Shown here: one piece after another, positions 2,004 through 18,784 of the stretch
Layout: each line of letters begins with the position of its first letter
Numbering within the stretch: the stretch's first letter is position 1
Assembly (NCBI RefSeq): GCF_025998535.1
Contig: NZ_AP024233.1
Span: forward strand, 904,217 to 968,216
Origin: Desulfolithobacter dissulfuricans
GTDB lineage: Bacteria > Desulfobacterota > Desulfobulbia > Desulfobulbales > Desulfobulbaceae
Length of the DNA stretch: 64,000 bases
Reading direction: 5' to 3'
Notes under the pieces: model-generated
The model's database searches: none
The model's input: the letters and a program-made list of their open reading frames with translations, nothing else
Told to the model about the DNA's origin: nothing
Program-made: the position numbers and the translations under genes

Positions 2004-2244
2004 CCCCCGCCTTTTCCGGTTTCGCCCGGTAGCTTTCAGCCCGCTTTTTTCCTCTTCGTTCCTTCGTGTCTTGGCCGGAGGACCTTCCTCGCGGCTCATG
2101 CTGTCATTTTAAGTTAATACTGGTTAATTAAAGATTGAAAAAGAGATAGTGCTCTTGTATATGGAGAAAATGTTATCCCTGGATGACCTGTGGTCCAGGG
2201 CCGTTGGTTTTGAAGCATCATACATTCGTTTACGGGGGAGAAGC
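2004..2244. other. Intergenic leader between fdhD and the HTH/binding-domain gene
   Basis: No gene is supported here. The second half is AT-rich, with GGTTAAT- and TTAAGTTAAT-like motifs around 2110-2135, and probably holds the promoter of the downstream regulator. In-frame GTG/ATG codons at 2149 and 2161 would lengthen the next protein but lack ribosome-binding sites. Confidence 0.4.
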
Positions 2245-3171: not shown

Positions 3172-3250
3172 GACGGTTCGAGCCCCTGTACCATCACCTG
3201 CCGGGGGCGCTGGAGACCCCGGGTTACTATCACATGTGAGGAGTGAAAAA

Positions 3251-4069: not shown

Positions 4070-4111
4070 TGCTGCTTCCCCGGCCTGGGTGACAGCACAT
4101 GGATTCATGAG

Positions 4112-4151
4112 GAAAATCCCGTTTTCCGCCCTGGCGGGAAACGGGATTTTC
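4112..4151 (+). terminator. Stem-loop between tupA and tupB
   Basis: A 19-bp inverted repeat (left arm 4112-4130, right arm 4133-4151) with a single G-U wobble would form a very stable hairpin just after tupA. It is followed by CATGAAAACCC rather than a clean U-run. It could act as a partial terminator or a 3' mRNA stabiliser, giving more binding protein than permease. Confidence 0.7.
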
Positions 4152-4172
4152 ATGAAAACCCATTATGCTGCC

Positions 4173-4235
4173 AACCGATAACCGATAACCGATAACCGAT
4201 AACCGATAACCGATAACTGATAATCGTCAACTGAT
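4173..4235 (+). repeat. Heptamer tandem repeat AACCGAT upstream of tupB
   Basis: Six perfect direct copies of AACCGAT (4173-4214) are followed by three degenerate copies (AACTGAT, AATCGTC, AACTGAT) that run up to the GTG start of tupB. The array occupies the leader where a Shine-Dalgarno would be expected, and no good one is visible. Confidence 0.9.
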
Positions 4236-4238
4236 AAC

Positions 4239-4934
4239 GTGACACTCTTTACAGAAGGTTTTGTTCGGGCACTCCAGCTCCTTGCATCCGGTGATCCGGG
4301 AGTGTACTCGGCCATCGGTGCCACGGTTACGGTTTCTACCTGGTCACTGGCGGCAAGCCTGGTCATTGGCGTGCCGGCTGGTTTCATGCTGGGGTACTGC
4401 CGGTTTCCGGGCAAGCGTATTGTCCGAACCATTGTGGATACCCTGCTTGCCCTGCCCACGGTGTTCATAGGCCTTGTGGTGTATACCCTGCTCTCCAGAA
4501 GCGGCCCCCTTGGGGAGCTGAACCTGCTTTTCAGTCTGAGCGGTATTGCCATTGGCCAGACCGTGCTCGGCCTTCCCATAATTATTGCCCTGACTGCTTC
4601 CCAGGTGGAAACACTGGATCAGCGGTTGTACAGTACGCTGATCGGCCTGGGAGCCCGGCCCGCTCAGGTGCTGCTGGCCACCGTGCTCGAGGCCCGGTTT
4701 GGACTGCTCGCAGCAGCAGTTACAGCCTATGGCCGTATTCTGACCGAGGTCGGCATCTCCATGATGGTGGGCGGTAATATCAAGTACCATACCCGCACCA
4801 TTACCACTGCCATTGCCCTGGAGACCGGCAAGGGCGAATTTATAACCGGTATTGCCCTGGGGCTGGTTCTGCTGGCCATTGCCCTGGTGGTGAACGGTTC
4901 GCTTTCGGTGTTGAAAAAACGGTGGCCTGTATGA
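4239..4934 (+). CDS. tupB: Tungstate ABC transporter, permease TupB
   Basis: Inner-membrane permease of the tungstate importer, 231 residues, with about five hydrophobic segments. The EAA-type cytoplasmic loop that contacts the ATPase is seen near residues 140-165 (LIGLGARPAQVLLATVLEARFGLLAA). The GTG start directly follows the AACCGAT repeat array and lacks a recognisable ribosome-binding site. The gene ends in an ATGA overlap with tupC, so the two are translationally coupled. Between MoeA/FdhD and a tungsten AOR, tungstate is the most likely substrate; molybdate cannot be excluded from sequence alone. Confidence 0.92.
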   Translation: MTLFTEGFVRALQLLASGDPGVYSAIGATVTVSTWSLAASLVIGVPAGFMLGYCRFPGKRIVRTIVDTLLALPTVFIGLVVYTLLSRSGPLGELNLLFSLSGIAIGQTVLGLPIIIALTASQVETLDQRLYSTLIGLGARPAQVLLATVLEARFGLLAAAVTAYGRILTEVGISMMVGGNIKYHTRTITTAIALETGKGEFITGIALGLVLLAIALVVNGSLSVLKKRWPV

Positions 4935-5956
4935 GCGCGCTGTATCGTTTACAGAATGTTCGCCAGTCCTATGATGGCCGCACAGTCCTGGCGATTGACG
5001 ATCTTGAATTACCGGAAAATGGTATTATCGGCTTTTTCGGTCCCAACGGCAGCGGCAAGTCAACCCTGTTCAGCCTGCTGTCGCTTGTTTCCCGGCCATG
5101 TTCCGGAAAAATACTTTTCAGGGGACTGGATACGGAAAAGCTGCAACCGGAGCAGAGGCGCTGCATAACTATTCTGCCCCAGGAGCCGTACCTTCTTAAA
5201 CGAACAGTGTTTGACAATGTGGCGTATGGTCTGAAGATACGCGATATTCGGGATGGGCTGGAAAAGAAGGTGCACGAAGCCCTTTCCTGGGTCGGTCTTC
5301 CCGCGTCATTTGCCGGTCGAAAATGGTACCAGCTTTCCGGAGGGGAGGTGCAGCGGGTGGCGCTTGCCGGCAGGTTGATCCTGCGTCCCGAAGTGCTGAT
5401 TCTTGATGAACCCACTGCCAGCGTGGATATCGGTTCTGCGCAACGGATCCGGGAGGCTGTTTTTCTGGCCAGAAAACAGTGGCAGACCACCCTGCTGATC
5501 GCCAGTCATGATCAGGGGTGGCTTGATCAGGTCAGTAATTACCGGGTCGGCCTTTTCCAGGGAAGGGTGGTCAACCACGGTGCGGTAAATTTCCTGTTCG
5601 GGCCGTGGCAGGAAAACGGCGCGGATCAGATGGTAAAAAAATTTCCTGACGGCCAGATACTCGTGCTTCCCGGGCCGGCGGACAAAAACAGAAATGTTTC
5701 CGTTGCCATGCTGGATCCGGCAAAGATCAGCATCTGTTGCAGCGGTATGAATTCTCCAGCCGGAAAGCTCGGTCTTTCCGGCATGGTCAGTACGGTGCGC
5801 CGGCAGCGTCACCGGGAGGAACTGCTCGTGGATGTGATGGTGAGCGGATTCCTTTTTCAGGTATGTCTGCCGGCCCATGATGTGAAAACGCGGCAGCTGT
5901 GGCCGGGCACCGCAGTCATGCTCGATTTTTCCCCGGATGGAGTCCGCTGGCTCTAG
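4931..5956 (+). CDS. tupC: Tungstate ABC transporter, ATP-binding protein TupC
   Basis: Cytoplasmic ATPase of the tungstate importer, 341 residues. Walker A GPNGSGKST lies near residue 37, the signature LSGGEVQRVALAGR near 135 and Walker B VLILDEPTA near 158. Residues 230-341 lie beyond the ATPase core and resemble a TOBE/MOP oxyanion-binding domain, which would let intracellular tungstate regulate transport. The ATG overlaps the tupB stop (ATGA); an upstream GTG at 4922 is less likely. Confidence 0.92.
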   Translation: MSALYRLQNVRQSYDGRTVLAIDDLELPENGIIGFFGPNGSGKSTLFSLLSLVSRPCSGKILFRGLDTEKLQPEQRRCITILPQEPYLLKRTVFDNVAYGLKIRDIRDGLEKKVHEALSWVGLPASFAGRKWYQLSGGEVQRVALAGRLILRPEVLILDEPTASVDIGSAQRIREAVFLARKQWQTTLLIASHDQGWLDQVSNYRVGLFQGRVVNHGAVNFLFGPWQENGADQMVKKFPDGQILVLPGPADKNRNVSVAMLDPAKISICCSGMNSPAGKLGLSGMVSTVRRQRHREELLVDVMVSGFLFQVCLPAHDVKTRQLWPGTAVMLDFSPDGVRWL

Positions 5957-6554: not shown

Positions 6555-7034
6555 TCAACCGGCAGAAAAAGGAATGGAGGAATGGTGGAGGTTGATTTTA
6601 AGATTACCATTCTGATCTTTAAAATAACCGAATGTATATTCGACCTTCACCTCATTTCCGCTGGTTTCGGTAAAGTAATAATTCTCCATGGCTACAGCAT
6701 AGCCGTCATGAATGTAAATCCCTTTGTTATCAAACCGTACCTTGATCCATGGATGAAGAGCAAAGCCGTTGTCTTCCTGATACTTGTCATTGCCGCCAAC
6801 AAAGTAGGAAAGAGCACCTTCTTTTGTCAGACGAAATTGCTCCACGCCAGCCTTGGTGGGCTTGAAGAGAACCGGGCCATCTTCAAAAGCATATAACGTG
6901 TCGAGATGGTTTTCTGCGGCTTCAATGTAGTCGCCGCCATCGGTAAATATCTTGCCAATGGCTACAATGCCTGCCCCCCATTTCTCTTGTGCCAATTGTA
7001 TTTCATCAGTTGTAATTGTCATATTTTTTACCAT
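6555..7034 (-). CDS. NTF2/SnoaL-like domain protein of unknown function
   Basis: 159 residues from an ATG with AGGAGT upstream. The sequence has an N-terminal helix-rich segment (EIQLAQEKWGAGIVAIGKIF) and later beta strands, ending in KINLHHSSIPFS, a pattern typical of NTF2-like cone folds. No signal peptide or membrane segment is present. It is separated by only two bases from the upstream NifU-like gene, so it belongs to the same operon. Homologues are sometimes labelled phosphoribosyl-AMP cyclohydrolase in annotations; nothing in the sequence supports that enzyme. Confidence 0.7.
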   Translation of the reverse strand: MVKNMTITTDEIQLAQEKWGAGIVAIGKIFTDGGDYIEAAENHLDTLYAFEDGPVLFKPTKAGVEQFRLTKEGALSYFVGGNDKYQEDNGFALHPWIKVRFDNKGIYIHDGYAVAMENYYFTETSGNEVKVEYTFGYFKDQNGNLKINLHHSSIPFSAG

Positions 7035-7036
7035 GA

Positions 7037-7462
7037 TTAACACTCCTGTGACACCTGTGAATCTTGTGCCATCTTTTTGCGCATGGCCTCGGCTATGGCC
7101 TCGCCCAGGGTGTTGACGGCAAGGCGGGCACAATGCATGTGGTCATCGGGCAGGGTCCAGAGGACATTTTTAATATCTTCAGGCTCAATCTGCAGAGCCT
7201 GGTCCAGGGTTTTGTGTTTTGCCAGTTCTCCAGCCACGCTGGCGCAGGCCCTGGTAAAGACACATCCTTCCGGGAGGACACGAATATCATCAATGGTGTT
7301 GTCGCTCACCTTCAGGTCGATGCGCATGGCATCGCCGCATGATCCGACCAGGCGGCTGGAACCGTCCGGATCGTCAAGAGTGCCAAGGTTTCGTGGTTTG
7401 TTGGCATGCGTTAAAAACGCCTGGCCAAGTTCTTCTATTGCTGTTTCATCGTGGTTTGACAT
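7037..7462 (-). CDS. NifU/IscU-type iron-sulfur scaffold protein
   Basis: 141 residues resembling the N-terminal scaffold domain of NifU/IscU, which assembles Fe-S clusters on three cysteines. Matching cysteines are visible: Cys42 in GSCGD, Cys73 in RACASVAG and Cys111 in HMHCARLA. An extra Cys67 lies in EGCVF. The pattern is looser than housekeeping IscU and the LPPVK chaperone motif is absent (LWTLPDDH instead), so this is a divergent scaffold probably dedicated to the neighbouring NifX/MinD proteins. The ATG at 7462 was preferred because the conserved region begins just after it. Confidence 0.82.
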   Translation of the reverse strand: MSNHDETAIEELGQAFLTHANKPRNLGTLDDPDGSSRLVGSCGDAMRIDLKVSDNTIDDIRVLPEGCVFTRACASVAGELAKHKTLDQALQIEPEDIKNVLWTLPDDHMHCARLAVNTLGEAIAEAMRKKMAQDSQVSQEC

Positions 7463-7566
7463 GGTACGGCAGTTTATTTCCAAATGAATAGTATGCCGGA
7501 AACACACAGTGAACCTTGATTGAATGGTCTGGATGTTTCCGGCGCGCTGCAGATAGAGACCGGTAA

Positions 7567-7938
7567 TTACCGACCGCCGCCACCGCAGGTGAACTCCTGG
7601 GTAAACTGCTGCAACTGGCCGGCAATAAATGCTTCAACCGCGGCGCCGACCGTAGGCGCGTTGCCGGCATAGTACACATCAATACCTACCTGGTTAAAAC
7701 CCATGAGCGGGCGCATGCCCATGCCACTGGCAAGCAGTATCTTGACGCCGTTGTCGGCAAGATACTGAACCGGTGCCATGCAGCCGCCCTGCTGATGCGG
7801 TACGCTGGGCAGGGTGCGGACTTCCTTTACCTGCCCGTCGGCGACCTCCACGACAGTGTACAGGTCGCAGTGGCCAAAGTGGGCGCCAAAAGCGGCTTCC
7901 AGGCCGCCGGGATGGGTTGAGGGGATGCCAATAAGCAT
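7567..7938 (-). CDS. NifX/NifB-domain (dinitrogenase Fe-Mo cofactor biosynthesis family) protein
   Basis: 123 residues, the cofactor-carrier fold shared by NifX, NafY and the Desulfovibrio orange protein. Landmarks are FGAHFGHCDLYTVVE near residue 17 (His and Cys candidates for metal binding), GGCMAPVQYL near 53 and ILLASGMGMRP near 67. The C-terminus ends in CGGGGR, an unusual cysteine-glycine tail. The ATG at 7938 has AAGGAG upstream. It directly follows the two MinD-type ATPases, as in the orange-protein locus, so it may carry a Mo- or Fe-containing cluster. The cargo is inferred, not visible. Confidence 0.85.
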   Translation of the reverse strand: MLIGIPSTHPGGLEAAFGAHFGHCDLYTVVEVADGQVKEVRTLPSVPHQQGGCMAPVQYLADNGVKILLASGMGMRPLMGFNQVGIDVYYAGNAPTVGAAVEAFIAGQLQQFTQEFTCGGGGR

Positions 7939-7975
7939 TGTCGTGTTCTCCTTGTCTGGTTGTAATGGGGTTTGT

Positions 7976-8845
7976 TTATCCGGCAAGCTCCTCTATTCTG
8001 GTCCATGCCTGTCGGATCTCTCTGCCGATTTCTGTTTCGCCAAGTTCGGTGACCGCGCGTTCCTGGACCATGGCCTCAGTGATCACCGGATCGTGCGGCA
8101 GCCTGGCCAGGAGGGGATAGTTTCTCTCTCGGCAATACTGTTCTATCATGGCCGCCTCATCCGGGTTGAGGTCTGCCTTGTTGATAATGACGCCTGACCG
8201 GATGCGGAAATGATCGCAGAGCGAGGCCACTCGCTCCAGATCGTGGCGGCCGGATGGCGTCGGTTCGGTAACAAGGACCGCAAAATTCGCTCCGGACAGG
8301 GAGCTGATGACCGGGCAGCCGATTCCCGGGGCTCCGTCACTGAGGATGAGGTCAATATTGTTTTCCCGGGCCAGTTTTTTGGCTTCATTTTTAAGAAGAG
8401 CCACCAGGCGGCCGGAATTTTCTTCACCGGGAAAAAGCTGTGCATGCACCATGGTGCCGAACCGTGTGGTGGAGACGTACCATGTGCCGCAATGTTTTTC
8501 CGGGAATTCAATGGTTTGTTCCGGGCAGAAGGAGACACAGACCTTGCAGCCTTCGCACCGGATCGGATCGACGGTAAACCTGTCGTTCTCCTGCCGGATC
8601 GCATTGTAACGACACATTTGCGCGCAGGTTCCGCACCCGGTGCATCCATCCTGATTTATCCGCGCCTCGTTACCGGCGTAAAAAGCGACCTCCTGTTCGT
8701 GACAAGGCTGCAGAAGAAGATGCAGGTCAGGCGCATCAACGTCCAGGTCGCAGATGATCTTGTTGTCTGCAAGGTGGGAAAACGCCGCAGTAAGAGAGGT
8801 TTTTCCTGTGCCCCCCTTGCCGCTGATGATCAGTATTTCACGCAT
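7976..8845 (-). CDS. MinD-superfamily P-loop ATPase with inserted 2[4Fe-4S] ferredoxin domain (second of pair)
   Basis: 289 residues. A deviant Walker A, GKGGTGKTS, is at residues 9-17. Two ferredoxin motifs are inserted after the first strand-helix unit: Cys68/71/74/78 and Cys97/100/103/107. The downstream half carries GAPGIGCPVISSL and VIINKADLN, typical of the Mrp/MinD family. Homologues (for example DVU2103/2104 of Desulfovibrio) accompany the orange protein. The start at 8845 has AAAGGAGG and overlaps the preceding ATPase by 8 bases. It probably acts as a heterodimer with that protein in ATP-driven cluster assembly. Confidence 0.9.
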   Translation of the reverse strand: MREILIISGKGGTGKTSLTAAFSHLADNKIICDLDVDAPDLHLLLQPCHEQEVAFYAGNEARINQDGCTGCGTCAQMCRYNAIRQENDRFTVDPIRCEGCKVCVSFCPEQTIEFPEKHCGTWYVSTTRFGTMVHAQLFPGEENSGRLVALLKNEAKKLARENNIDLILSDGAPGIGCPVISSLSGANFAVLVTEPTPSGRHDLERVASLCDHFRIRSGVIINKADLNPDEAAMIEQYCRERNYPLLARLPHDPVITEAMVQERAVTELGETEIGREIRQAWTRIEELAG

Positions 8846-9716
8846 GGGACACCTCCTTTCCGGAGTCAGCGGCCAGGTCGCGGATTTTTTCACGGAGCGA
8901 GACAAAAACAGTGCCAAGTTCGTCCGAAACTCCGGCTATTACCCGGCCACGCGAATACGCCTCGGCAATGGAGCGGTCAAAGGGAATTTCAGCCAGTATC
9001 GGAATGTTTTTTTTCTTGCAGAAATCATAGATGTCGCGGGTCCCGAGTCCGGCCCGGTTGATGACAACTCCCATGGGTTTTCCCAATGGTGAAAAGGATT
9101 CCCAGGCCAGCTTGAAATCGTGAAAGCCAAACGGTGTGGCATCGGTGACCAACACAATGACATCGCTGTCTATGACCGAGCAGATAGCAGGGCAGCTCAC
9201 CCCTGGAGGCGCATCAATGATGACATCCTGATTTGTCTCCAGCAGGGTTTGCTGCATCTGTTTTTTAACCTGCTCCATAAAGGGCGGGCTCATTGCCTCA
9301 CCTATGCGCAGGGTGCCCATGAGAAAATCAATTTTTCCAGCCCGGCCCTGACGGATTTCACCCAGTTCCCGTCTGCCTGCCTGCAATGCATTCTCCCTGC
9401 ATACAGCAATACAGCCACCGCAACCGTGGCACATGTCCGGGTACAGGGTCAGCGTGGAAAGCATCATGGAGATGGCCTTGAACTGACACAACTCCACGCA
9501 GTTTCCGCACCCGGTGCATTTTTCCGCGTCCAGTTCCGGAACCTCCATCCAAGCCTTGGCCGGCGAACCCAGTTCGGGCCACAGAAAAAGATGCAGATTC
9601 GGCTCCTCGACATCAAGATCCACCACCTGCAGCGGAGCATCCCATACGGTGGCAAGGGAGGCGGTGACCGTGGTTTTGCCGGTGCCGCCCTTGCCGCTGG
9701 CAACAGTAATAATCAT
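8838..9716 (-). CDS. MinD-superfamily P-loop ATPase with inserted 2[4Fe-4S] ferredoxin domain (first of pair)
   Basis: 292 residues with Walker A GKGGTGKTT at 8-16 and two four-cysteine ferredoxin motifs (Cys67/70/73/77 and Cys96/99/102/106). APPGVSCP and VVINRAGLG mark the second half. It is the paralogue of the next gene and precedes it with an 8-base overlap, the usual arrangement of such pairs. A GGGGG stretch provides the ribosome-binding site. Transcription comes from the NifX/DUF134 genes to the right. Confidence 0.9.
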   Translation of the reverse strand: MIITVASGKGGTGKTTVTASLATVWDAPLQVVDLDVEEPNLHLFLWPELGSPAKAWMEVPELDAEKCTGCGNCVELCQFKAISMMLSTLTLYPDMCHGCGGCIAVCRENALQAGRRELGEIRQGRAGKIDFLMGTLRIGEAMSPPFMEQVKKQMQQTLLETNQDVIIDAPPGVSCPAICSVIDSDVIVLVTDATPFGFHDFKLAWESFSPLGKPMGVVINRAGLGTRDIYDFCKKKNIPILAEIPFDRSIAEAYSRGRVIAGVSDELGTVFVSLREKIRDLAADSGKEVSHA

Positions 9717-9781
9717 GATTTTACCCCCGCTGTAACACAGCGGTTACGTGTTTCACTCAATTGTGGGTTTCAGGTTTGTTG

Positions 9782-10135
9782 CTACCGGTTCGGTTTGTCT
9801 GCAAAGGGAATTTCCCCTTTTTGAAATTTCTCGATCGCCTCGCGTACGGTCATGTTGTCGCAATCCTGCCCCACCTTGATGCCCGCTGTCGCAAGGGCCT
9901 GGAAGGCCTTGGGGCCGACATAGCCGCTGAGCACAACTTCTGCACCAGCTTTGGCCACGTTTTCAGCGGTCTGGATGCCAGCACCCTGACTCATGGTCTG
10001 GCTTGCGCCGTTGTCAATGTACCGGGCCTCCATGGTTTCCAGGTCCATAACGAGAAATCCCCCGGCGCGGCCAAACCGGGGATCAACCTGGTCGTCAAGG
10101 GTAGGGTCTTCACTGGTTACGGCTATCTTTTTCAC
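9782..10135 (-). CDS. NifX/NifB-domain cofactor-binding protein
   Basis: 117 residues: MKKIAVTSEDPTLDDQVDPRFGRAGGFLVMD, then GASQTMSQGAGIQTAENVAKAG, VVLSGYVGPKAFQAL and a short charged tail. This is the compact NifX fold seen in stand-alone carriers of the orange-protein type; the only cysteine is in GQDCDN. It begins with GTG overlapping the DUF134 stop by four bases. The homologous pair is a single fused reading frame at 14113-14859, which supports a functional link between the regulator and this protein. Confidence 0.88.
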   Translation of the reverse strand: MKKIAVTSEDPTLDDQVDPRFGRAGGFLVMDLETMEARYIDNGASQTMSQGAGIQTAENVAKAGAEVVLSGYVGPKAFQALATAGIKVGQDCDNMTVREAIEKFQKGEIPFADKPNR

Positions 10136-10494
10136 TGTATTTTCTCCCGTGTGTACAGATATAGGTTTGTTTTTCTGGTATCGGCCTGGATATCAGGCTC
10201 GCATTTCATCATGAAATTACCGCCCTCGATACGAATGGCCATGCCTTCGGTAATCGCCTGCGAAACAACCCGGCTGGCCTCTGCCAGGATCCGGCCAAAG
10301 GTGTGAGGGGACACATTCATCTGGCGGGCAGCGGTATTGAGATCCAGTCCTTCCGTGTCGGCCAGGCGCAGGGCTTCTACCCCTTCAATGGGCAGATAGA
10401 CCTCGGTCAGCTCCCTGAGCGGGATACCGCGCGGTTTGAAATAACGGACCCTTGGCATCCGGGCCACCAGTCGGCATTTTTTAGGGCGTGGCAT
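10132..10494 (-). CDS. DUF134 helix-turn-helix regulator (class A)
   Basis: 120 residues. It begins MPRPKKCRLVARMPRVRYFKP, the hallmark of DUF134, followed by a helix-turn-helix (LNTAARQMNVSPHTFGRILAEA) around residues 55-80. Family members are predicted DNA-binding proteins found beside NifX-type genes. A perfect 8-bp-arm palindrome, TTTTGCTCATGCGAGCAAAA, lies 16 bases upstream of the start and is a good candidate autoregulatory operator. The gene overlaps nifX-like by GTGA. Confidence 0.88.
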   Translation of the reverse strand: MPRPKKCRLVARMPRVRYFKPRGIPLRELTEVYLPIEGVEALRLADTEGLDLNTAARQMNVSPHTFGRILAEASRVVSQAITEGMAIRIEGGNFMMKCEPDIQADTRKTNLYLYTREKIQ

Positions 10495-10509
10495 GTCAAT
10501 TCCCCTATA

Positions 10510-10529
10510 TTTTGCTCATGCGAGCAAAA
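10510..10529. promoter_or_regulatory. Palindromic operator candidate, class A
   Basis: TTTTGCTCATGCGAGCAAAA has perfect 8-bp arms around ATGC, just upstream of the class A DUF134 gene. A variant copy occurs at the equivalent place upstream of the paralogue (14875-14894), which supports a real binding site. Confidence 0.7.
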
Positions 10530-10613
10530 CAATATGGCGTGGGCCTGTTTCTGTCAACCGGAAAATGAACCAGGGCCGCAGGAAAAAATCCGCGGCCCTG
10601 GTGGAAGATCAGA

Positions 10614-10829
10614 TTACCTTCTGCCCATCATGCGGCCCCTGTTACCACCACCGCTGCCTCTTCCCTTTTTCCGGCCGCCTCTTCCCATGCCGCAGCCACG
10701 GTTGTTGCCCTGGCCAATGCTGCCGGCTTCAGGCATGTCGTTCCTTCCGGTTCCGGCAGCGCATTGGCCGGCTCCTCTTCCAGTTCCGGGTCCCTGTCCC
10801 TGTGGGCCTGTTCCATTCATTCCAGGCAT
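10614..10829 (-). CDS. DUF5320 Gly/Arg-rich small protein
   Basis: 71 residues starting MPGMNGTGPQGQGPGTGRGAGQC, the standard DUF5320 opening, then low-complexity Gly/Arg-rich sequence ending RGRMMGRR. A strong ribosome-binding site (AGGAGGTG) precedes the ATG. Function is unknown; members are repeatedly found between DUF134 and NifX-type genes, as here and again at 15015-15227. The two cysteines and abundant Gly/Met could bind metal, but this is speculation. Confidence 0.8.
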   Translation of the reverse strand: MPGMNGTGPQGQGPGTGRGAGQCAAGTGRNDMPEAGSIGQGNNRGCGMGRGGRKKGRGSGGGNRGRMMGRR

Positions 10830-10876
10830 GATACACCTCCTGTGCTGTTGGTTGTGCCTCTGAGAGGCATGGTAAA

Positions 10877-11236
10877 TTATCCGTGTCGTTTCTGTTTCCC
10901 GCATCTCTGCCTGCCATGGCCGCAGAAGTCGTCATTTTCAGAGCCAACAAGATGATAGTTGCCTCCTTCAATGCGGATCGCCCAGCCGTTTGCCAGCGCC
11001 CTTGCCACAATGCTTCTTGCTTCGGCGAGGATTCGGCACAGCGTTGGTGTGGAGACGTCCATCATCCGCGCTGCTTCCTCGCGGCTTACGCCTTCGGCGT
11101 CAACCAGCCGCAATGCCTCAAATCCTTCCAGCGGAAGCGTAACTCCCTTTAAACTGTGCAGGGCAACGCCCCTGGGTTTGTAGAATGTGGATACCGGCAT
11201 GTGCCGGATACGGCGATGTTTTCTCGGTCGAATCAT
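10877..11236 (-). CDS. DUF134 helix-turn-helix regulator (class B)
   Basis: 119 residues, MIRPRKHRRIRHMPVSTFYKPRG at the N-terminus and an HTH (VSREEAARMMDVSTPTLCRI) near residues 50-70. It differs clearly from the class A gene (10132-10494) and is nearly identical in the HTH to 15322-15675. The C-terminus carries Cys/His (DFCGHGRQRCG). The start has AAGGAG. Upstream is a distinct palindrome, ATGAAACATATTTCAT. It is the first gene of the leftward cluster and so probably its main regulator. Confidence 0.88.
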   Translation of the reverse strand: MIRPRKHRRIRHMPVSTFYKPRGVALHSLKGVTLPLEGFEALRLVDAEGVSREEAARMMDVSTPTLCRILAEARSIVARALANGWAIRIEGGNYHLVGSENDDFCGHGRQRCGKQKRHG

Positions 11237-11250
11237 TCTGTCTCCTTGTT

Positions 11251-11266
11251 ATGAAACATATTTCAT
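11251..11266. promoter_or_regulatory. Palindromic operator candidate, class B
   Basis: ATGAAACATATTTCAT, an inverted repeat with one mismatched pair, 14 bases upstream of the class B DUF134 start. The paralogous gene has the perfect version at 15690-15705, and both are followed by a shared ACAATAGGTA. Confidence 0.7.
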
Positions 11267-11506
11267 AATTGACAATAGGTATCCAATCGGCACAAGTCAA
11301 GAAAAAGGGGTGGAGAGTATGATTTTATCGCCAGCTGAGAAAAAGAGGAGCCGGCCAGTACATCCCTCTGGCAGGCCGTAGGTATATTTACCTATGCCAT
11401 TTCCGGTATTTTTTCCTATTTATTTCCATAACTCAGCGAGATAATATGAAATTGATTGACGAAAAGTTACTTGTCAAAAAAGTGTTTCAGCATTGGAGGT
11501 GGCATT

Positions 11507-11899
11507 ATGGCATTAATAAAATGGAGAGATTCGTATTCTGTCGGTGTTGAGCAGTTTGACCGGCAGCATGTTAAGCTTGTCGAGTTAATCAATGAGATAT
11601 TTATGATGGTGCTCCACAAAAAGAGTGTTGCCTCTCTTCATGATTCCATCGAAACACTCATTGAATATACCCAGGTCCATTTTGCAGATGAAGAGGCAGC
11701 CATGGAAAAAGCCGGTTACCCTTTATTAGGCGCACATAAACAGGAACATGCCCAGTTGGAACAGGAGGTTCTCATGTTTTATGACCGGGTAAAAAATGGG
11801 GAGGAGGTTGTCACCGAGTTCTATCAATTTTTAAGGGAATGGTTGCTCAACCACATCGTTGAGTCCGATATGAAGTATGCTGAATATCTTGCCCACTAA
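11507..11899 (+). CDS. Bacteriohemerythrin
   Basis: 130-residue O2-binding di-iron protein. All seven canonical ligands are present: His21, His58, Glu62, His77, His81, His116 and Asp121. The start MALIKWRDSYSVGV follows GGAGGTGGC. It is monocistronic and transcribed away from the DUF134 cluster. In anaerobes such proteins bind or deliver oxygen and may protect oxygen-sensitive metalloenzymes such as those encoded nearby. Confidence 0.95.
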   Translation: MALIKWRDSYSVGVEQFDRQHVKLVELINEIFMMVLHKKSVASLHDSIETLIEYTQVHFADEEAAMEKAGYPLLGAHKQEHAQLEQEVLMFYDRVKNGEEVVTEFYQFLREWLLNHIVESDMKYAEYLAH

Positions 11900-12173
11900 T
11901 AAATGTTGGTATAAACAGTCAGAAAGAAGGTGGATCAAGAAAGCGGGATGATAGTGGGGCGACAGGCATATGCATGCCGTGTGCCATGAAATGGGTGTAA
12001 TGAAATATCATGATGCACGGTTCTACCGGTTTCCGGGACAGAAATGAACCGGGCCTGTCGGCGCCCGATGCATGGAATTGATTGACATGGCAGTATGATT
12101 TCTGTTTTCATGTCTGGCTGTCATGCAAAACCGTTCCTTATCTTTAATCAAACCATTTTCAGAGTGATAATCC
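11900..12173. other. Intergenic region upstream of nhaA
   Basis: No gene is supported. A TTGACA at 12082-12087 might be a -35 element for nhaA, but no convincing -10 follows at the right distance. Confidence 0.35.
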
Positions 12174-13478
12174 ATGGGCGCAACCCCGTCTAAAAATTTC
12201 TTTGAACGTTTTCTCCACTCGCAGAGTGCAAGTTCTGTTGTCCTCATTTTTGCTACCCTGACCGCGGTCATCTGGGCCAATTCTCCCTGGGCCGATATCT
12301 ACCAGAAGTTGAGCCATCTCGATATCGGCACCTATTTCAACGGCAAACAGTACCATCTTTCCCTGGATCACTGGGTCAAGGACGGGCTGATGGCCATCTT
12401 CTTCTTTGTAGTCGGTCTGGAAATCAAGCGGGAGATTCTGACCGGCGAACTTTCCTGCCTGAAAAAAGCCATGCTGCCGGTGATGGCAGCCTTTGGCGGC
12501 GCCGTGGTTCCGGCCCTGGTCTATTTTGCCTTTAATCCCGGCGGACCCGAGGCCAGCGGCTGGGGTGTGCCCATGGCCACCGATATCGCCTTTGCCCTGG
12601 GGCTGCTGGCCCTGTTTGGCAGACGGGTACCCATTACCCTGAAGGTCTTCCTCACAGCCTTGGCCATTGTCGACGATCTGATGGCGGTCCTGGTCATTGC
12701 CCTGTTTTACACCGAGCAGATCAACTTCCTGCCGCTGGTCATCGCCCTTTTTCTGCTGGCCATCCTGGCCCCCATTGTCCGAAACCGGATTCGCCGACCG
12801 GTCTGCACTTTCCTGATCATCGTCGGGGTCTGGCTCTGTGTCTTTCTCTCGGGAATCCATGCCACCATTGCCGGCGTTATCCTGGCCATGGTGGTGCCGG
12901 TGAAGGCGACCATCGAGCCGAAAAAGTTTTTCCAGACCCTGAAAAAGTACAACGGCCTGCTCAAAGAGAGCAAGATGACCAGGCACTCCATGATCACGGA
13001 CCGGGAACAGCGTAAGGCCATTGAGCAGATCTATCTGGCTGCCGAGGGGATGATCCCGGTCGGGATCCGCCTGGAGGAAATGCTCCATCCCATCCAGGCC
13101 TTTCTCATTCTGCCGATCTTTGCCCTGTTTGCCGCCGGGGTCACCGTTGATGCCGGTATGCTGGCCGCCTTTCCCAGCAGCGTCAGCCTGGGGATCATGA
13201 CCGGGCTGATTCTCGGTAAGCCGCTCGGCATCATGGGTTTCAGCTTCCTGGTCGTCAAGATGAACATGAGCTCTCTTCCTTCGCGGGTGACCTGGGGGCA
13301 GCTCTGGGGCGTTTCCCTGCTTGGCGGTATCGGTTTTACCATGGCCATTTTCATCAGCGAGCTTGCCTTTGCCGATGCGGCCATGGTCGCCGATGCAAAA
13401 ATCGCCATCTTCCTGGCCTCGATTCTGGCCGCCATTCTTGGTTTTCTTGTCCTGAGCAGGACGCTGCCCAAAAAATAA
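12174..13478 (+). CDS. nhaA: Na+/H+ antiporter NhaA
   Basis: 434 residues with about 11-12 hydrophobic segments. It exchanges Na+ for H+ across the inner membrane. VVGLEIKREILTGEL near residue 80, MATDIAFALG near 138 (transport Asp) and AIVDDLMAV near 163 (the paired Asp of the ion site) match NhaA. The region between about 240 and 300 is longer and more polar than in E. coli NhaA, as in many marine and deltaproteobacterial forms. It suggests life in saline or marine conditions. A 25-bp tandem duplication follows the stop. Confidence 0.95.
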   Translation: MGATPSKNFFERFLHSQSASSVVLIFATLTAVIWANSPWADIYQKLSHLDIGTYFNGKQYHLSLDHWVKDGLMAIFFFVVGLEIKREILTGELSCLKKAMLPVMAAFGGAVVPALVYFAFNPGGPEASGWGVPMATDIAFALGLLALFGRRVPITLKVFLTALAIVDDLMAVLVIALFYTEQINFLPLVIALFLLAILAPIVRNRIRRPVCTFLIIVGVWLCVFLSGIHATIAGVILAMVVPVKATIEPKKFFQTLKKYNGLLKESKMTRHSMITDREQRKAIEQIYLAAEGMIPVGIRLEEMLHPIQAFLILPIFALFAAGVTVDAGMLAAFPSSVSLGIMTGLILGKPLGIMGFSFLVVKMNMSSLPSRVTWGQLWGVSLLGGIGFTMAIFISELAFADAAMVADAKIAIFLASILAAILGFLVLSRTLPKK

Positions 13479-13514
13479 CCCCGCAAGGAACGTAAACCAG
13501 CATGACTGGACCAG

Positions 13515-13564
13515 GTAAGCGACCGAAGGGAGACTCCGGGTAAGCGACCGAAGGGAGACTCCGG
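13515..13564. repeat. 25-bp tandem direct repeat
   Basis: Two perfect back-to-back copies of a 25-bp unit (13515-13539 and 13540-13564) beginning GTAAGCGACCGAAGGGAGAC lie just after nhaA. They separate the antiporter from the decayed MinD copy. Origin unknown. Confidence 0.85.
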
Positions 13565-13645
13565 GTTCCGGCACTGTCCACCCACAACAGACCATGAAAA
13601 TCATCCTGTAATTACAAAATGTTGTGGTGACCTTCGGGCAAAGAG

Positions 13646-14037
13646 TCAACCGGCGAGCTCTTCTATTTTTTTCCATGCCAGCCTGATCTGGTCCCCGATT
13701 TCCGAGTCGCCGGGTTCGGTGATTGCCCGTGCCCTGACCATGGCCTCGGTAATCACCGGATCATGGGGCAATTTTGCCAGAAGCGGATAGCTTTTCTCCC
13801 GGTAATACAGTTCTATGCCTTTCGTCTCATCAGGATTGAGACCAGCCTTGTTGATGATGACTCAGGCCCGGATTCGGAAATGATCGCAGAGGGTAGCCAC
13901 CCGTTCCAGGTCATGGCGCGCGGCCCGACGGAGTAGGTTCTATGACCAGGACAGCAAAATGCGCCCCGGAAAGGGAACTGATTACAGGGCAGCCGATTTC
14001 CGGTGCCGCCCTTGCCGCTGACGACAGTAATAAGCAT
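13646..14037 (-). pseudogene. Remnant of fused MinD-type ATPase pair
   Basis: The 5' end (MLITVVSGKGGTG) matches the first MinD ATPase (8838-9716); after the P-loop it jumps into the second half of the second ATPase (matching GCPVISSLSGA...HDLERVA...VIINKAGLNPDE...KIEELAG). A segment equivalent to roughly 1.2 kb, including all ferredoxin cysteines, is missing. The junction sits in GCACCGG (complement of 14000-14006). Further lesions are a 4-base insertion after SGR and a Gly codon changed to TGA just before VIINKAG. It cannot make a functional ATPase. Confidence 0.88.
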
Positions 14038-14112
14038 AATTATTCTCCCGCCGTACATCAGGGTGTTCTGATTGTATGTATTTCCGCGGAATACGAAGAC
14101 TCCCGTTCTCAG

Positions 14113-14859
14113 TTACCTGTTCGGCCTGTCGGCAATGGGGATTTCGCCTTTTTTAAATTTCTCGATCGCCTCGCGAACGGTCATGTTGTCGCAATCCTGT
14201 CCCACCTTGATACCCGCCGCGGTCAGTGCCTGGAAGGCCTTGGGGCCGATATAGCCACTGAGCACAACACCAGCCCCGGCCCGGGCCACGTTTTCGGCAG
14301 CCTGGATACCCGCACCCTGGCCCAGGGACTGGCTTGCGCCATTGTCAATGTAGTGGGTTTCCATGGTGTCCGGATCGACAAGGAGAAATCCCCCGGCGCG
14401 GCCAAATCGGGGATCAACCTGATCGTCAAGGGAAGGTCCTTCGCTGGATACGGCTATCTTTTGCATTGCTTTCTCTCCTTTCTGTGCAGATAATGTTTTT
14501 TTCCTGCTGTTGTCAGGCCGGCTGTCTGGCACGGTACTTTCGGTTTTCTGTTCATCTGCGGATTCGCCTTTTACTATGAAATCACCACCTTCGATACGAA
14601 TGGCCATGCCTTCGGTAATCGCCTGGGAAACAACCCGGCGGGCCTGGGCCAGGATACGGCCAAGGGTGTGACGGGAGACATTCATCTGGCGGGCAGCGGT
14701 ATTGAGATCCAGTCCTTCGGTGTCCACCAACCGCAGGGCCTCTGCCCCTTCAACGGGCAGATAGACCTCGGTCAGCTCCCTTAAGGGGATACCGCGCGGT
14801 TTGAAGTAGCGAACCCGGGGCATCCGGGCCACCTGTCTGCATTTTTTGGGGCGTGGCAT
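14113..14859 (-). CDS. DUF134 regulator fused to NifX-domain protein
   Basis: 248 residues. Residues 1-110 are a class A DUF134 protein (MPRPKKCRQVARMPRVRYFKP, HTH near 55-80). Residues 132-248 are a NifX domain (KIAVSSEGPSLDDQVDPRFG...). The first gene cluster has these as two genes overlapping by four bases; here a ~20-residue linker joins them in one frame. An internal ATG at 14466 with AAGGAGAG upstream could still give free NifX protein. A degenerate class A palindrome lies upstream at 14875-14894. Confidence 0.85.
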   Translation of the reverse strand: MPRPKKCRQVARMPRVRYFKPRGIPLRELTEVYLPVEGAEALRLVDTEGLDLNTAARQMNVSRHTLGRILAQARRVVSQAITEGMAIRIEGGDFIVKGESADEQKTESTVPDSRPDNSRKKTLSAQKGEKAMQKIAVSSEGPSLDDQVDPRFGRAGGFLLVDPDTMETHYIDNGASQSLGQGAGIQAAENVARAGAGVVLSGYIGPKAFQALTAAGIKVGQDCDNMTVREAIEKFKKGEIPIADRPNR

Positions 14860-14874
14860 TGTGTCTTCCTTTTA

Positions 14875-14894
14875 TTTTGCTCAAATGCGCAAAA
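14875..14894. promoter_or_regulatory. Palindromic operator candidate, class A copy
   Basis: TTTTGCTCAAATGCGCAAAA, an imperfect version of the palindrome at 10510-10529, at the same place relative to the class A DUF134 start. Confidence 0.6.
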
Positions 14895-15014
14895 AAAAAT
14901 ATGGTGCGAAACTGGTCCTGTCAACCTGAAAAACAAAGGGGCCGCAGGAAGAAGTCATGCGGCCCCGGGGAGAGTTGCGCTGCTCTCCCTGTTTGGGTTG
15001 TTGAGGATGGTTAT

Positions 15015-15227
15015 TTATCTGTTGCCTGAGCGGTTTCTGCTGCCACAGCCACAGTTCCTTCCTCTTTTCTGTCCGCGCCCTTTCATGCCGTGGCCGCATC
15101 TGTTATCCTGGCCTGTGCCGCCGGTTTCAGTCATGTTGTTTCTTCTGGCTCCGGCCGCGCACCGCCCGGCGCCTCTGCCGGTCTTTGGCCCTTGTCCTTC
15201 CGGGCCTGTCCCGTTCATTCCAGGCAT
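15015..15227 (-). CDS. DUF5320 Gly/Arg-rich small protein (second copy)
   Basis: 70 residues, MPGMNGTGPEGQGPKTGRGAGRC then Gly/Arg/Cys-rich sequence ending CGCGSRNRSGNR. It is the counterpart of 10614-10829 with the same AGGAGGTGTATC leader. The tail here has CGCG, so cysteine content differs between copies. Confidence 0.78.
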   Translation of the reverse strand: MPGMNGTGPEGQGPKTGRGAGRCAAGARRNNMTETGGTGQDNRCGHGMKGRGQKRGRNCGCGSRNRSGNR

Positions 15228-15321
15228 GATACACCTCCTGTGTGTATATCTTTGCGGTTTTGCAGGTACCATTGTTTCCGGCAATGGAGCTGCTGTCTGT
15301 TATGTTTATGTGATGCTGTTT

Positions 15322-15675
15322 TTATCGTCTCTTTCTTCTGCGACAGTGAAATGGAGATTCGCAGGGTTCCTGGTGCTCCTGGTCAACTAACGTGTAGTCG
15401 CCGCCTTCGATGCGAAGGGCCCAGCCGTTGGCCAGTGCCCTTGCCACGATACTTCTGGCCTCGGCAAGGATCCTGCACAGGGTAGGAGTGGAGACATCCA
15501 TCATCCGTGCTGCTTCCTCGCGGCTCACCCCTTCGGCGTCAACCAGCCGTAGCGCCTCAAATCCTTCCAGCGGCAGTGTAACCCCTTTCATGTCATGCAG
15601 GGCAATTCCCCGGGGTTTGTAAAATGTCGACGCCGGCATGCGCCGGATACATCGATTTTTTCTCGGGCGAGCCAT
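15322..15675 (-). CDS. DUF134 helix-turn-helix regulator (class B, second copy)
   Basis: 117 residues, MARPRKNRCIRRMPASTFYKPRG; the HTH VSREEAARMMDVSTPTLCRI is identical to the first class B copy, so both probably bind the same operator. The start has AGGAGGC upstream, and the perfect palindrome ATGAAATATATTTCAT lies at 15690-15705. It heads the second, decayed cluster. Confidence 0.87.
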   Translation of the reverse strand: MARPRKNRCIRRMPASTFYKPRGIALHDMKGVTLPLEGFEALRLVDAEGVSREEAARMMDVSTPTLCRILAEARSIVARALANGWALRIEGGDYTLVDQEHQEPCESPFHCRRRKRR

Positions 15676-15689
15676 CGTTGCCTCCTGTT

Positions 15690-15705
15690 ATGAAATATAT
15701 TTCAT
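15690..15705. promoter_or_regulatory. Palindromic operator candidate, class B copy
   Basis: A perfect 16-base palindrome, ATGAAATATATTTCAT, 15 bases upstream of the class B DUF134 start, followed by ACAATAGGTA exactly as in the first copy. Confidence 0.75.
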
Positions 15706-16076
15706 ATTTAACAATAGGTAGTCTTCGGGCGGGAGTCAATGAAAAAAATGATAGGTTGTGGAAAAATAGTATCTGGTTACCACTGAACCTCAGCCTGAAG
15801 AGAAGATACCAACGCTTGGCGCCACGGAGCCGGGCAGCAATAAAAACCGCCCGAACTTCTCGTTCCTCCGCTCCTGCGGTGAACGTTCCATCACCCCTGG
15901 TATCGCTCCAGCGGTACCCTGATGTACCTGGCAGGGATGGCCCATGGTTCGCAAGGTCCGCAGACAACCCTTGCCAAGACCAGTAGCTCCGACACCTGTT
16001 TCCGGCATCACCCCGCAGAGCGGGGCATTGCCTGCTGGGGGAGCAGGTATTTCTCGCCGGAAGAGAAGAGAAAAAC
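15706..16076. other. Gene-poor stretch with two adjacent hairpins
   Basis: No recognisable gene. Two short stem-loops stand side by side: CCCCGC-AGA-GCGGGG at 16011-16025 and CCTGCT-GGGGG-AGCAGG at 16031-16047. They could end transcription from either side or be debris of a decayed gene. Confidence 0.5.
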
Positions 16077-16481: not shown

Positions 16482-16524
16482 TTTCTGTCCCCCTGGCAGA
16501 TGTTTTTGGCTCAGTGCCAGTTAG

Positions 16525-16687
16525 CACCTGTCCAGAAATGGTCTTTCCGAGTCTCGCAGGCTCGCTTACCTCGCCCGATCTCTGCGTCATCCTCAAAAAA
16601 TAATGCTCGGAATATTACGCATATGCCTGCGCCTATTTTTTTTGAATTCCTTGATCTCGAACGAAAATCCTCATTTCTGGACAGACA
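16525..16687. mobile_element. MITE-like element with 13-bp terminal inverted repeats
   Basis: 163 bp, non-coding. Terminal inverted repeats CTGTCCAGAAATG (16528-16540) and its complement (16672-16684) are perfect. The 8-bp direct repeats CCAGTTAG flank it at 16517-16524 and 16688-16695, consistent with target duplication. It sits right at the stop codon of the MoeA fusion gene. The parent transposon is not in the window. Confidence 0.7.
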
Positions 16688-16691
16688 CCAG

Positions 16692-18626
16692 TTAGGTACT
16701 TTTCAGGGTAACCCTGTTCCCGGTTTCCTTGGTCGAATATCCGCCCATGGCTTCCACGGCCTGTTTGAACTCGCTCGTCGTGATGATCTCCAGTACCCGC
16801 CGGATCATTTCCAGGTTCAAAAATTCCTCGGGAATGATCAGGTCGTAGCGCTCTTCGGTGACCGGGATGAAATCAAGCCCTAATGCCCGGGCTGCCGCCA
16901 GAATGCCGAGCCCGGCATCGGCCTTGCCGGACAGCACGGCCACGGCCACGGCCATGTGGGTGTATTCCTCGGCGTCGTAGCCGGATATCACGTCCGGATC
17001 CAGATCCGCCTTTTCCAGTTCATGGTCCAGGAGCACCCTGGTGCCGGAGCCGGCCTGGCGGTTGATGAAGGTGATGTCTTCCCTGGTCAGGTCGTGAACC
17101 GACTCGATACCTTTGGGATTGCCTGGTCGGACCATGAAACCCTGCTGCCGGTGCACCAGAGTGATGAGCGCAACCTCGCGGTTTTTCAGGTACCGCTTGA
17201 TATAGCTTACGTTGTACTCGCCGGTTTCCGGATCGAGCAGGTGGGATCCGGCCATGTGGGTCATGTTGTCGCGGATTGCCATGATTCCGCCCAGGGAACC
17301 GACATGGGTAGATGCCAGGGGATAGGCCGGGGTGGATTTTTTCAGGAAATCATGGAGCAGGTCGAGGCAGAGGTCATGGCTGCCGGTGCAGAGGATGGTT
17401 TTTTCGATCTGTTCCAGTGGTCTCAGCAGCTCAATATTGACCACGCTGCCACGGGTTTCGCCTTCCGACGAGGCGGGAATACGCAACATGGCATTGGCCC
17501 GGGTCAGGGTGGTGATGGCTCCGGCCCCTTTCTTGAGCGGCAGGGCCACCAGCTGTGCGCCGATCTTGCCGGCAATCATCCGCCGAAACTCCTCGATACC
17601 GCCCCTGGATGGCAGGTCTCTTGCCAGCACTGCCCTGGCCGTGATCGGATCCGGCAGGCTCAGGCCCTGCATCATGGCCAGCAGGGGCACAACAAACTGT
17701 TCAAAGGAAATGATGGCCGAGACCGGATACCCGGGATTGCCCACCACCGGCTTGCCGTCAATGACGCCCAGGATCGTGGGTTTGCCGGGCATGATGGTGA
17801 CTCCGTGCACCAGCACCTCACCAAGCTCGTCGATAACCTGAACCGTGTAGTCGGCGCTGCCGGCCGATGAGCCTGCATTGATGATCACCACGTCAGCGTC
17901 GGATTCCACAGCAGAGCGAAGATGGTTTTTTATATTCTCGTAATCATCGGCAATGATTTTTGTCACTGTCACTTCGCTGCCAGCCTGTCTGGCCAGCGCG
18001 GCCAGGACCGCTGAATTGGATTCAATGGTTTTCCCTGGCGGCGGGGTATCCGTACAGTACTCGAGATCAACCAGCTCGGTGCCGGTGGGGATAATGGTGA
18101 GCCTGGGCCGTTTTCTAACCGTTACCTGCGGACAGCCCGCGGTGAGCAGGGCGGCAACGTCCGGCGGGGTAATGAGGTGGTTGCTGGGAAAGAGCAGCTC
18201 AGTGGCGACAATGTCTTCACCGACCTTGCGTACGTTCTGCCAGGGATACACCGGGGCCCGGATAACCCCCTGCTTCTGGTCATCGGTGAGCAGGACATGT
18301 TCGATCATGACCACCGCGTCCTTACCCTCGGGCATGGGATGTCCGGTATTGATGAAAACCGCCTGGCCAGACTCGATGTCCAGAGTGATCGGGTTGTCGT
18401 CCGCGGCGCCAAAGGTGTCCTCGGCCTTGACGGCCAGCCCGTCCATGGCTGCGGAATGGAAGGAAGGTGAGGAGAGCCGGGCGCTTACCGCCGCCGCAGT
18501 CACCCGTCCGGCAGCCTCCCGGCTGGGTATGGTTTCCTCTCCGGTAGCATAGTCTTTGAATCGTGACCAAAAGAGACGCTGCGCCTCTTCAAGGGGCTGC
18601 ATGTTGAGATATATTTTTCGTTTCAT
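16692..18626 (-). CDS. MoeA fused to PBP-like substrate-binding domain
   Basis: 644 residues. Residues 1-400 are MoeA: SFHSAAMDGLAV near 60, INTGHPMPEGKDAV near 95, IPTGTELV near 180, NAGSSAGSADYT near 250, MPGKPT near 278 and GNPGYPVSA near 295. Residues about 410-640 are a PBP-like domain (CTGSHDLCLDLL...INRQAGSGTRVLLDHELEK...SGKADAGLG), the same as in the HTH protein at 2245-3171. Such fusions occur in anaerobes and archaea and may couple metal insertion to ligand sensing. The start at 18626 was chosen over a GTG at 18671 because the MoeA N-terminus begins there. Confidence 0.88.
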   Translation of the reverse strand: MKRKIYLNMQPLEEAQRLFWSRFKDYATGEETIPSREAAGRVTAAAVSARLSSPSFHSAAMDGLAVKAEDTFGAADDNPITLDIESGQAVFINTGHPMPEGKDAVVMIEHVLLTDDQKQGVIRAPVYPWQNVRKVGEDIVATELLFPSNHLITPPDVAALLTAGCPQVTVRKRPRLTIIPTGTELVDLEYCTDTPPPGKTIESNSAVLAALARQAGSEVTVTKIIADDYENIKNHLRSAVESDADVVIINAGSSAGSADYTVQVIDELGEVLVHGVTIMPGKPTILGVIDGKPVVGNPGYPVSAIISFEQFVVPLLAMMQGLSLPDPITARAVLARDLPSRGGIEEFRRMIAGKIGAQLVALPLKKGAGAITTLTRANAMLRIPASSEGETRGSVVNIELLRPLEQIEKTILCTGSHDLCLDLLHDFLKKSTPAYPLASTHVGSLGGIMAIRDNMTHMAGSHLLDPETGEYNVSYIKRYLKNREVALITLVHRQQGFMVRPGNPKGIESVHDLTREDITFINRQAGSGTRVLLDHELEKADLDPDVISGYDAEEYTHMAVAVAVLSGKADAGLGILAAARALGLDFIPVTEERYDLIIPEEFLNLEMIRRVLEIITTSEFKQAVEAMGGYSTKETGNRVTLKST

Positions 18627-18784
18627 GGCGTTTTCTATGAAAGTCGCGTCCCGCCTTTCTGGGGGCGACACTTTTCATGTTTCGTTGTGCAGGCCGTGCG
18701 AGCCTGCATGGATGTTATTGTAAAAGTTCGTTTCACCGAGCGGTTCATTGGTGCAACTGATTCAAGACAGTCTCAGGTGTCGTG

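Follow-up and report, generated by a model that had tools for sequence, protein, structure and literature searches.

The 64,000-nucleotide stretch of the Desulfolithobacter dissulfuricans genome analyzed here (the window; contig NZ_AP024233.1, positions 904,217–968,216) carries an orange protein (ORP) locus whose genes are tied to DUF134 proteins. The ORP locus is already known, and on sequence grounds the window is an orp locus under a different and apparently undescribed kind of control. DUF134 probably represses ORP operons, and its own gene, by binding an operator, and the NifX or ORP protein paired with it would be the likely reporter of cluster supply. Locus identity, a DUF134-ORP fusion, an internal start, and palindromic operators with their placing are read from the DNA. 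From these we infer that DUF134 binds DNA and represses, and that the ORP cluster is the signal.

Identity of the orange protein operon

The original prediction described two co-directional modules with the gene order DUF134(B)-DUF5320-DUF134(A)-NifX-MinD, and Pfam matches on both modules bear this out. Both lie on the minus strand and are separated by unrelated plus strand genes, hemerythrin and NhaA. The prediction of an intact first module that adds a NifU-like scaffold, a second NifX, and an NTF2-like protein was also correct. Its extent was not, as the module really continues to about position 6555, and the single MinD is a pair. The features of module 1 are as follows.

6555–11236, minus strand: module 1 as a whole, an intact ORP operon of nine genes
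10877–11236, minus strand: DUF134B copy 1 (PF02001, 73.4 bits; also HTH_23)
10614–10829, minus strand: DUF5320 copy 1, glycine-rich MPGMNGTGPQGQGP..TGR (PF17253, 26.6 bits, just below the cut-off of 27)
10132–10494, minus strand: DUF134A copy 1 (PF02001, 64.4 bits)
9782–10135, minus strand: NifX1, the ORP orthologue (Nitro_FeMo-Co; match to PDB 2wfb, ORP clade)
8838–9716, minus strand: MinD1, P-loop ATPase with an inserted 2x[4Fe-4S] ferredoxin (Pfam and motifs)
7976–8845, minus strand: MinD2, P-loop ATPase with an inserted 2x[4Fe-4S] ferredoxin, Orp3/Orp4-like (Pfam CbiA and Fer4, and motifs)
7567–7938, minus strand: NifX2, an HFGHC-type NifX protein (PF02579, 66.8 bits)
7037–7462, minus strand: NifU/IscU-like scaffold (PF01592, NifU_N, 81.5 bits)
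6555–7034, minus strand: NTF2-like protein, the last gene of the module (NCBIfam NF047901, 131 bits)

DUF134 and DUF5320 were assigned with PF02001 and PF17253, each at a cut-off of 27, and all four DUF134 proteins of the window score 64–73 bits. NifX1 has a GTG start and overlaps the stop of DUF134A.

NifX1 matched Desulfovibrio gigas ORP (PDB 2wfb) over its whole length with an E value of 8.9e-45, compared to 1.2e-11 for the next solved NifX protein, and the two are 61.5% identical over 117 residues. A tree of 177 NifX domains placed both window copies of NifX1 in an 83-row clade (99/99) that includes 2wfb but not MTH1175 or the Thermotoga proteins; NifX2 falls into a separate 71-row HFGHC clade (98/99). 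The NifX1 copies thus belong with ORP and not with housekeeping proteins, and the resemblance to an ORP locus seen originally is in fact identity. D. gigas ORP has a known structure and binds an unusual Mo-Cu sulfide cluster non-covalently. The cluster of the window ORPs is not readable from sequence. The solved structure of D. gigas ORP has a single domain, whereas the window ORPs are preceded by or fused to DUF134.

Gene order was compared with the best 80 of more than 500 candidate homologues from public genomes, so the proportions describe close ORPs. Most of these loci are metagenome bins, and the counts are not independent because the genomes and loci are related. Upstream sequence was available for 75 loci and enough downstream sequence for 56. 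The MinD pair directly follows ORP in 50 of the 56, a second NifX is present in 54, and NifU follows in 17. The order ORP-MinD-MinD-NifX recurs in most of them. By homology and gene order, module 1 is a genuine ORP operon of a sulfate-reducer-like bacterium.

Motif reading shows a GKGGTGKT P-loop and two CxxCxxCxxxC motifs in each of MinD1 and MinD2. Orp3 and Orp4 of Desulfovibrio vulgaris are likewise ATPases with ferredoxin motifs (PMC6345978). A role in septum placement or cell division was proposed for the D. vulgaris ORP complex (PMC3897727, PMC6345978), and this published proposal and the MinD-like ATPases would favor an operon for division in which metal carriage is secondary. However, the two ferredoxin motifs of the MinDs, together with the NifU and second NifX that are often added, make up a cluster-assembly set, and we consider a division operon unlikely.

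Fusion of DUF134 to ORP

Module 2 (13646–15675, minus strand) contains the following features.

15322–15675, minus strand: DUF134B copy 2, DUF134B2 (PF02001, 73.3 bits)
15015–15227, minus strand: DUF5320 copy 2 (PF17253, 36.3 bits)
14113–14859, minus strand: DUF134A2-ORP2 fusion of 248 amino acids (DUF134 and Nitro_FeMo-Co Pfam domains in a single frame)
14113–14466, minus strand: candidate internal start and free ORP2 (ATG at 14466 preceded by AAAGGAGAG, read in the linker DNA)
13646–14037, minus strand: MinD pseudogene, frameshifted, with a MinD1 start joined to a MinD2 end (blastn against module 1)

DUF134A and NifX of module 2 had been called as two genes, and they are one open frame. The fusion is common. 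DUF134 is fused to ORP in frame in 30 of the 75 loci with upstream sequence and adjacent to it in 5; the other 40 have none within 1.5 kb upstream. The fused linkers are often only 5–30 codons long, so the DUF134-ORP fusion must be translated. A ribosome-binding sequence and ATG are kept at the ORP boundary in 27 of 29 fused frames, compared to 9 of the 175 remaining in-frame ATGs in these genes. This conservation suggests that one fused gene probably makes two proteins, the fusion and free ORP.

The association extends beyond ORP. DUF134 is also fused to the other, HFGHC-type NifX (loci L060, L067, L073, and L088). NifX lies on the same strand within 300 bp of 33 of the 68 DUF134 genes in the loci compared from elsewhere, and 8 of these are fused. 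Across 158 surveyed genomes of the phylum, DUF134 scored above the cut-off in 55 and was more common in genomes with a close ORP (18/25 versus 37/133, p 5e-5). The predicted linkage of DUF134 to NifX is therefore real across genomes, as fusion, adjacency, and a common palindrome, and co-occurrence was not confined to this window.

Four of the five DUF134 genes of the D. dissulfuricans genome sit in the two modules. The fifth (C1:1361168–1361443; L004, L093, L254) adjoins an HFGHC-type NifX, and a 3-mismatch palindrome copy, TTGTAAACATATGCACATAA, is located about 90 bp after it.

An AlphaFold model of the DUF134A2-ORP2 fusion, built with 31 sequences, has two confident domains joined by a disordered linker (residues 100–130, pLDDT <50). 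The C-terminal domain is ORP, with a TM score of 0.95 and 0.9 Å to 2wfb; the likeness of the window ORPs to D. gigas ORP covers identity (62% for NifX1), fold, and clade. The N-terminal HTH resembles sigma region 4 (SigR 5fgm, 0.7 Å over 43 columns), a match that is weak alone (E 0.3). Profile matches of DUF134 at E<=0.01 were obtained to HTH_23 in 27 of 33 proteins and to Sigma70_r4_2 in 21 of 33, and HTH_23 is above its cut-off for DUF134B. No paper on the function of DUF134 (UPF0251, PF02001) or DUF5320, and none on a DUF134-ORP fusion, was found in the literature searched, most subscription papers being outside its scope.

The same observations could fit a DUF134 that answers another signal, such as a metal, redox state, or sulfide sensed through its own residues or through another partner, with the ORP fusion only coupling production and keeping the proteins together. 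Most DUF134 genes are unfused and many have no NifX neighbor, Cys7 is nearly invariant in the fused DUF134 set, and free ORP would be made from the internal start. On the other side, the fusions involve two NifX subfamilies and at least 15 changes of the fused state are counted along the ORP tree, which indicates a functional tie between the DUF134 and NifX folds, and a fused plus a free product resembles a regulator titrated by its free ligand carrier. We therefore regard a signal other than the ORP cluster as somewhat unlikely.

Putative operators and promoters

Each DUF134 gene of the two modules is preceded by a promoter-like sequence and a 20-bp palindrome, and each module has a GC-rich hairpin between DUF5320 and the DUF134A gene.

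11272–11300, minus strand: promoter-like TTGACT-N17-TATTGT of DUF134B (promoter scan)
11249–11268, minus strand: putative B-type operator TTATGAAATATGTTTCATAA of module 1, at about +1
10569–10602, minus strand: GC-rich hairpin with a 13-pair stem, a possible terminator of the DUF134B-DUF5320 unit
10529–10557, minus strand: promoter-like TTGACA-N17-TATTGT of the DUF134A-ORP-MinD unit (10/12 matches, among the region's best three)
10510–10529, minus strand: putative A-type operator TTTTGCTCGCATGAGCAAAA of module 1, immediately downstream of the -10 element of its promoter and 35 nt before the DUF134A gene
15711–15739, minus strand: promoter-like TTGACT-N17-TATTGT of DUF134B2, with a spacer unlike that of module 1 (promoter scan)
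15688–15707, minus strand: putative B-type operator ATATGAAATATATTTCATAA of module 2, before DUF134B2
14938–14966, minus strand: GC-rich hairpin of module 2, similar to that of module 1
14896–14924, minus strand: promoter-like TTGACA-N17-TATTTT of module 2 (promoter scan)
14875–14894, minus strand: putative A-type operator TTTTGCGCATTTGAGCAAAA of module 2, before DUF134A2-ORP2

The hairpin is also found in the related loci L105 and L106. Because it separates two promoters in each module, DUF134B-DUF5320 and DUF134A-ORP-MinD appear to be transcribed as separate units. The two operator variants differ in their arms, TTATGAA..TTCATAA in the B type and TTTTGCTC..GAGCAAAA in the A type. The putative B-type operator, TTATGAAAYATATTTCATAW, lies before both DUF134B genes and nowhere else in 3.6 Mb within 3 mismatches (4 window matches versus 0.03 expected). 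The putative A-type operator, TTTTGCKCRYWTGAGCAAAA, lies before both DUF134A genes and nowhere else in the genome.

Palindromes upstream of DUF134 genes in other genomes gave the 20-bp consensus TTATGARCATATGYTCATAA. With up to 5 mismatches allowed, it is present in 65 of 128 DUF134 upstream regions (dinucleotide shuffles gave an expectation of 0.5), and with up to 3, in 34 of 128 (0.0 expected). These counts are weakened by the consensus having been drawn partly from the sequences scored. This does not apply to the 40 ORP operons without a DUF134 neighbor, 13 of which carry the motif with up to 4 mismatches in the 200 nt upstream of ORP (0.02 expected). All 12 genomes with operator-bearing, DUF134-less ORP operons encode DUF134 elsewhere, compared to 9 of 15 others (p 0.017). 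A genome of the same order (G126) has a 1-mismatch motif before an ORP-MinD-MinD operon and its DUF134 on another contig. A second site in that genome (L251, G126:C3, about 3116) is a 2-mismatch palindrome between two divergent genes resembling those of a DUF302-type protein and an FAD/NAD oxidoreductase, near its DUF134.

The palindromes overlap promoters, being placed at +1 or between -35 and -10. In the window, each TTGAC[AT]-N17-TATT[GT]T promoter, whichever the module or paralogue, has the operator immediately downstream, although the spacers differ, and in other loci such as L039 the palindrome occupies the gap between -35 and -10. Judged by its location on these promoters, the palindrome is in the usual position for a repressor. 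A scan for further targets covered 158 genomes, with 20 regions inspected. Apart from DUF134 genes, it pointed clearly to an ORP operon (L250) and to a cluster of regulator, NifX, and ORP genes (L257). Most 3-mismatch sites fall inside unrelated genes or in the gaps between them and resemble chance matches.

DUF134 binding to the palindrome is inferred, and the HTH matches (Pfam HTH_23 and Sigma70_r4_2) are weak and partial. Another regulator might thus bind the palindromes while DUF134 is otherwise employed, for example as an RNA polymerase-associated or structural protein. Against such a regulator, both operator types occur in the genome only before the four linked DUF134 genes, and operator and DUF134 go together across genomes. 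We judge this arrangement quite unlikely.

The control of the known orp locus is of another kind. D. vulgaris Hildenborough encodes Orp3, 4, 5, 8, and 9 (PMC6345978, PMC3897727), in a pair of divergently transcribed operons controlled by sigma54, the activator DVU2106, and IHF (PMC3897727). Both loci have ORP, a pair of ferredoxin-bearing ATPases, and a further NifX-type domain. In contrast to the divergent sigma54 operons, the window genes run in a single direction from sigma70-type promoters, and the window adds the DUF134 genes with their palindromes and the NifU-like scaffold. No GAFTGA motif of a sigma54 activator was found in any frame of the 64-kb window. The DUF134 proteins would take the place of the sigma54 activator.

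Decay of the second module

The modules had been called duplicated, and they are 75–83% identical in DNA (blastn). The MinD gene predicted in module 2 is a chimeric pseudogene without a Pfam match. Its first ~40 nt derive from a MinD1 copy and, from a junction near 14000 on, the remainder is the final third of a MinD2 copy. Relative to module 1, about 1.3 kb is missing, and a 4-bp frameshifting insertion and an in-frame stop are present. Module 2 therefore formerly carried the MinD pair and has since lost it. Its DUF134, DUF5320, and ORP frames stay open despite the loss of the MinD frame. The intact genes have dN/dS of 0.15–0.28 against module 1 (dS 0.4–1.2), so the proteins were constrained over most of their divergence, and such pairwise values are unable to show continued selection after the MinD loss.

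In the tree, the module 2 ORP groups nearer the fused ORPs of other Desulfobulbaceae-like genomes than the module 1 ORP. Recent tandem duplication was rejected as a simple account on this grouping, the DNA identity, and the dS values. Given its decay and the closeness of its ORP to the fused ORPs of other genomes, module 2 is by these sequence criteria an old duplicate or import and not a fresh copy. A short tandem repeat, gtaagcgaccgaagggagactccggg, is located at 13515–13570, just past the NhaA gene and near the decayed end.

Other genes of the locus and its neighborhood

NifX2 was considered as MrpORP, the Mrp-NifX fusion of the D. vulgaris orp locus. Its closest NCBIfam domain is the Di-Nase part of MrpORP (NF041136, 52 bits, over profile positions 260–365 only), and the assignment was rejected as no Mrp domain is attached. 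A search of the D. dissulfuricans genome gave no MrpORP above the cut-off; the best match, C1:821380, is Mrp-only and lacks the NifX part. Two other proteins of this genome have a C-terminal NifX domain. One is NifB-like and apparently lacks the N-terminal radical-SAM cysteines (C1:273530–273793; L190), and the other resembles a cation-efflux (CDF) transporter (C1:1957869–1958117; L191).

The NTF2-like protein aligns to the metal-independent (iota-type) carbonic anhydrase model NF047901 (residues 29–190 to profile 40–204), and it fails the cut-off of that profile (131 versus 350 bits). No relative was found in the other 80 ORP loci. An HHSS motif lies near its C terminus.

The original prediction tied the modules to tungsten and molybdenum (W/Mo) genes. 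MoeA-, FdhD-, TupA-, TupB-, and TupC-like genes are located at 1–5956, two MoeA genes at 16692–20023, and an AOR-like gene at 27003–28730. These neighbors would suit a W/Mo cofactor system in which the module serves the tungstate transporter, MoeA, and AOR genes. However, no relatives of the window MoeA, FdhD, TupA, TupB, or AOR were found in the 80 other ORP loci (0.97 Mb, flanks up to 8 kb), and MoeA occurs in only 2 of the 67 DUF134 loci surveyed. A general linkage to W/Mo genes was rejected on this basis, the proximity looks local to this window because none of the other ORP loci carries such relatives, and a W/Mo role for the module is very improbable. A PBP-like domain is common to 16692–18671, where it is fused to MoeA, and 2149–3171, where it is fused to an HTH, beside the tungstate-transporter-like genes. 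Inverted copies of a gtccagaaatgg stretch at 16500–16700, beside a MoeA gene, are perhaps a small mobile or repeat element.

Discussion

The favored mechanism joins an assembly set to its own repressor. By homology, the NifU-like scaffold, the two ferredoxin-bearing MinD ATPases, ORP, and the HFGHC-type NifX would build a metal-sulfide cluster, carry it, and pass it on. DUF134, a small HTH protein, would bind the 20-bp palindromes, probably as a dimer, on the promoters of its own gene and of ORP operons and repress them, with two paralogues matched by the two operator variants. The probable ligand-binding half would be ORP, which is either joined to DUF134A or encoded on a common transcript with it and would also be made free from the internal start. 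The state of its cluster may alter operator binding, and the operon would therefore be tuned to cluster supply.

Several findings weigh against this mechanism, besides the limits given above for the consensus and the dN/dS values. The fusion model has a pTM of 0.48 and predicts no domain packing, so the relative placing of the two domains is not predicted. In 40 of the 75 ORP loci DUF134 is absent from the 1.5 kb upstream, and 27 of these 40 also lack an operator, which means that DUF134 control is not universal, and some ORP loci without DUF134 (L120, L121, L125, and L133) have a sigma54-activator motif. A looser set of ORP genomes is weakly enriched in DUF134 (p 0.06). Free ORP could also be the main product and the fusion incidental.

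IscR and ModE are HTH proteins that bind DNA according to the cluster or metal they carry and that feed back on the matching pathway. DUF134-ORP would work alike, although its DNA-binding and ligand-binding families are different and it is not a member of either group. We tentatively suggest that DUF134-ORP proteins of anaerobes may form a new family of transcription factors that sense a metal-sulfide cluster. ORP would be the sensing half of the repressor, made fused and, via the conserved internal start, also free. Expression of the operon would then be set by free ORP and the cluster through a 20-bp operator common to Desulfobacterota and Holophagaceae-like genomes. ORP has no agreed job and DUF134 no assigned function, and this proposal would give both a first testable role. 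The fusion in 30 of 75 close ORP loci, the kept internal start, and the common operator reduce it to two questions: whether DUF134 binds the palindrome, and whether the ORP cluster controls DUF134.

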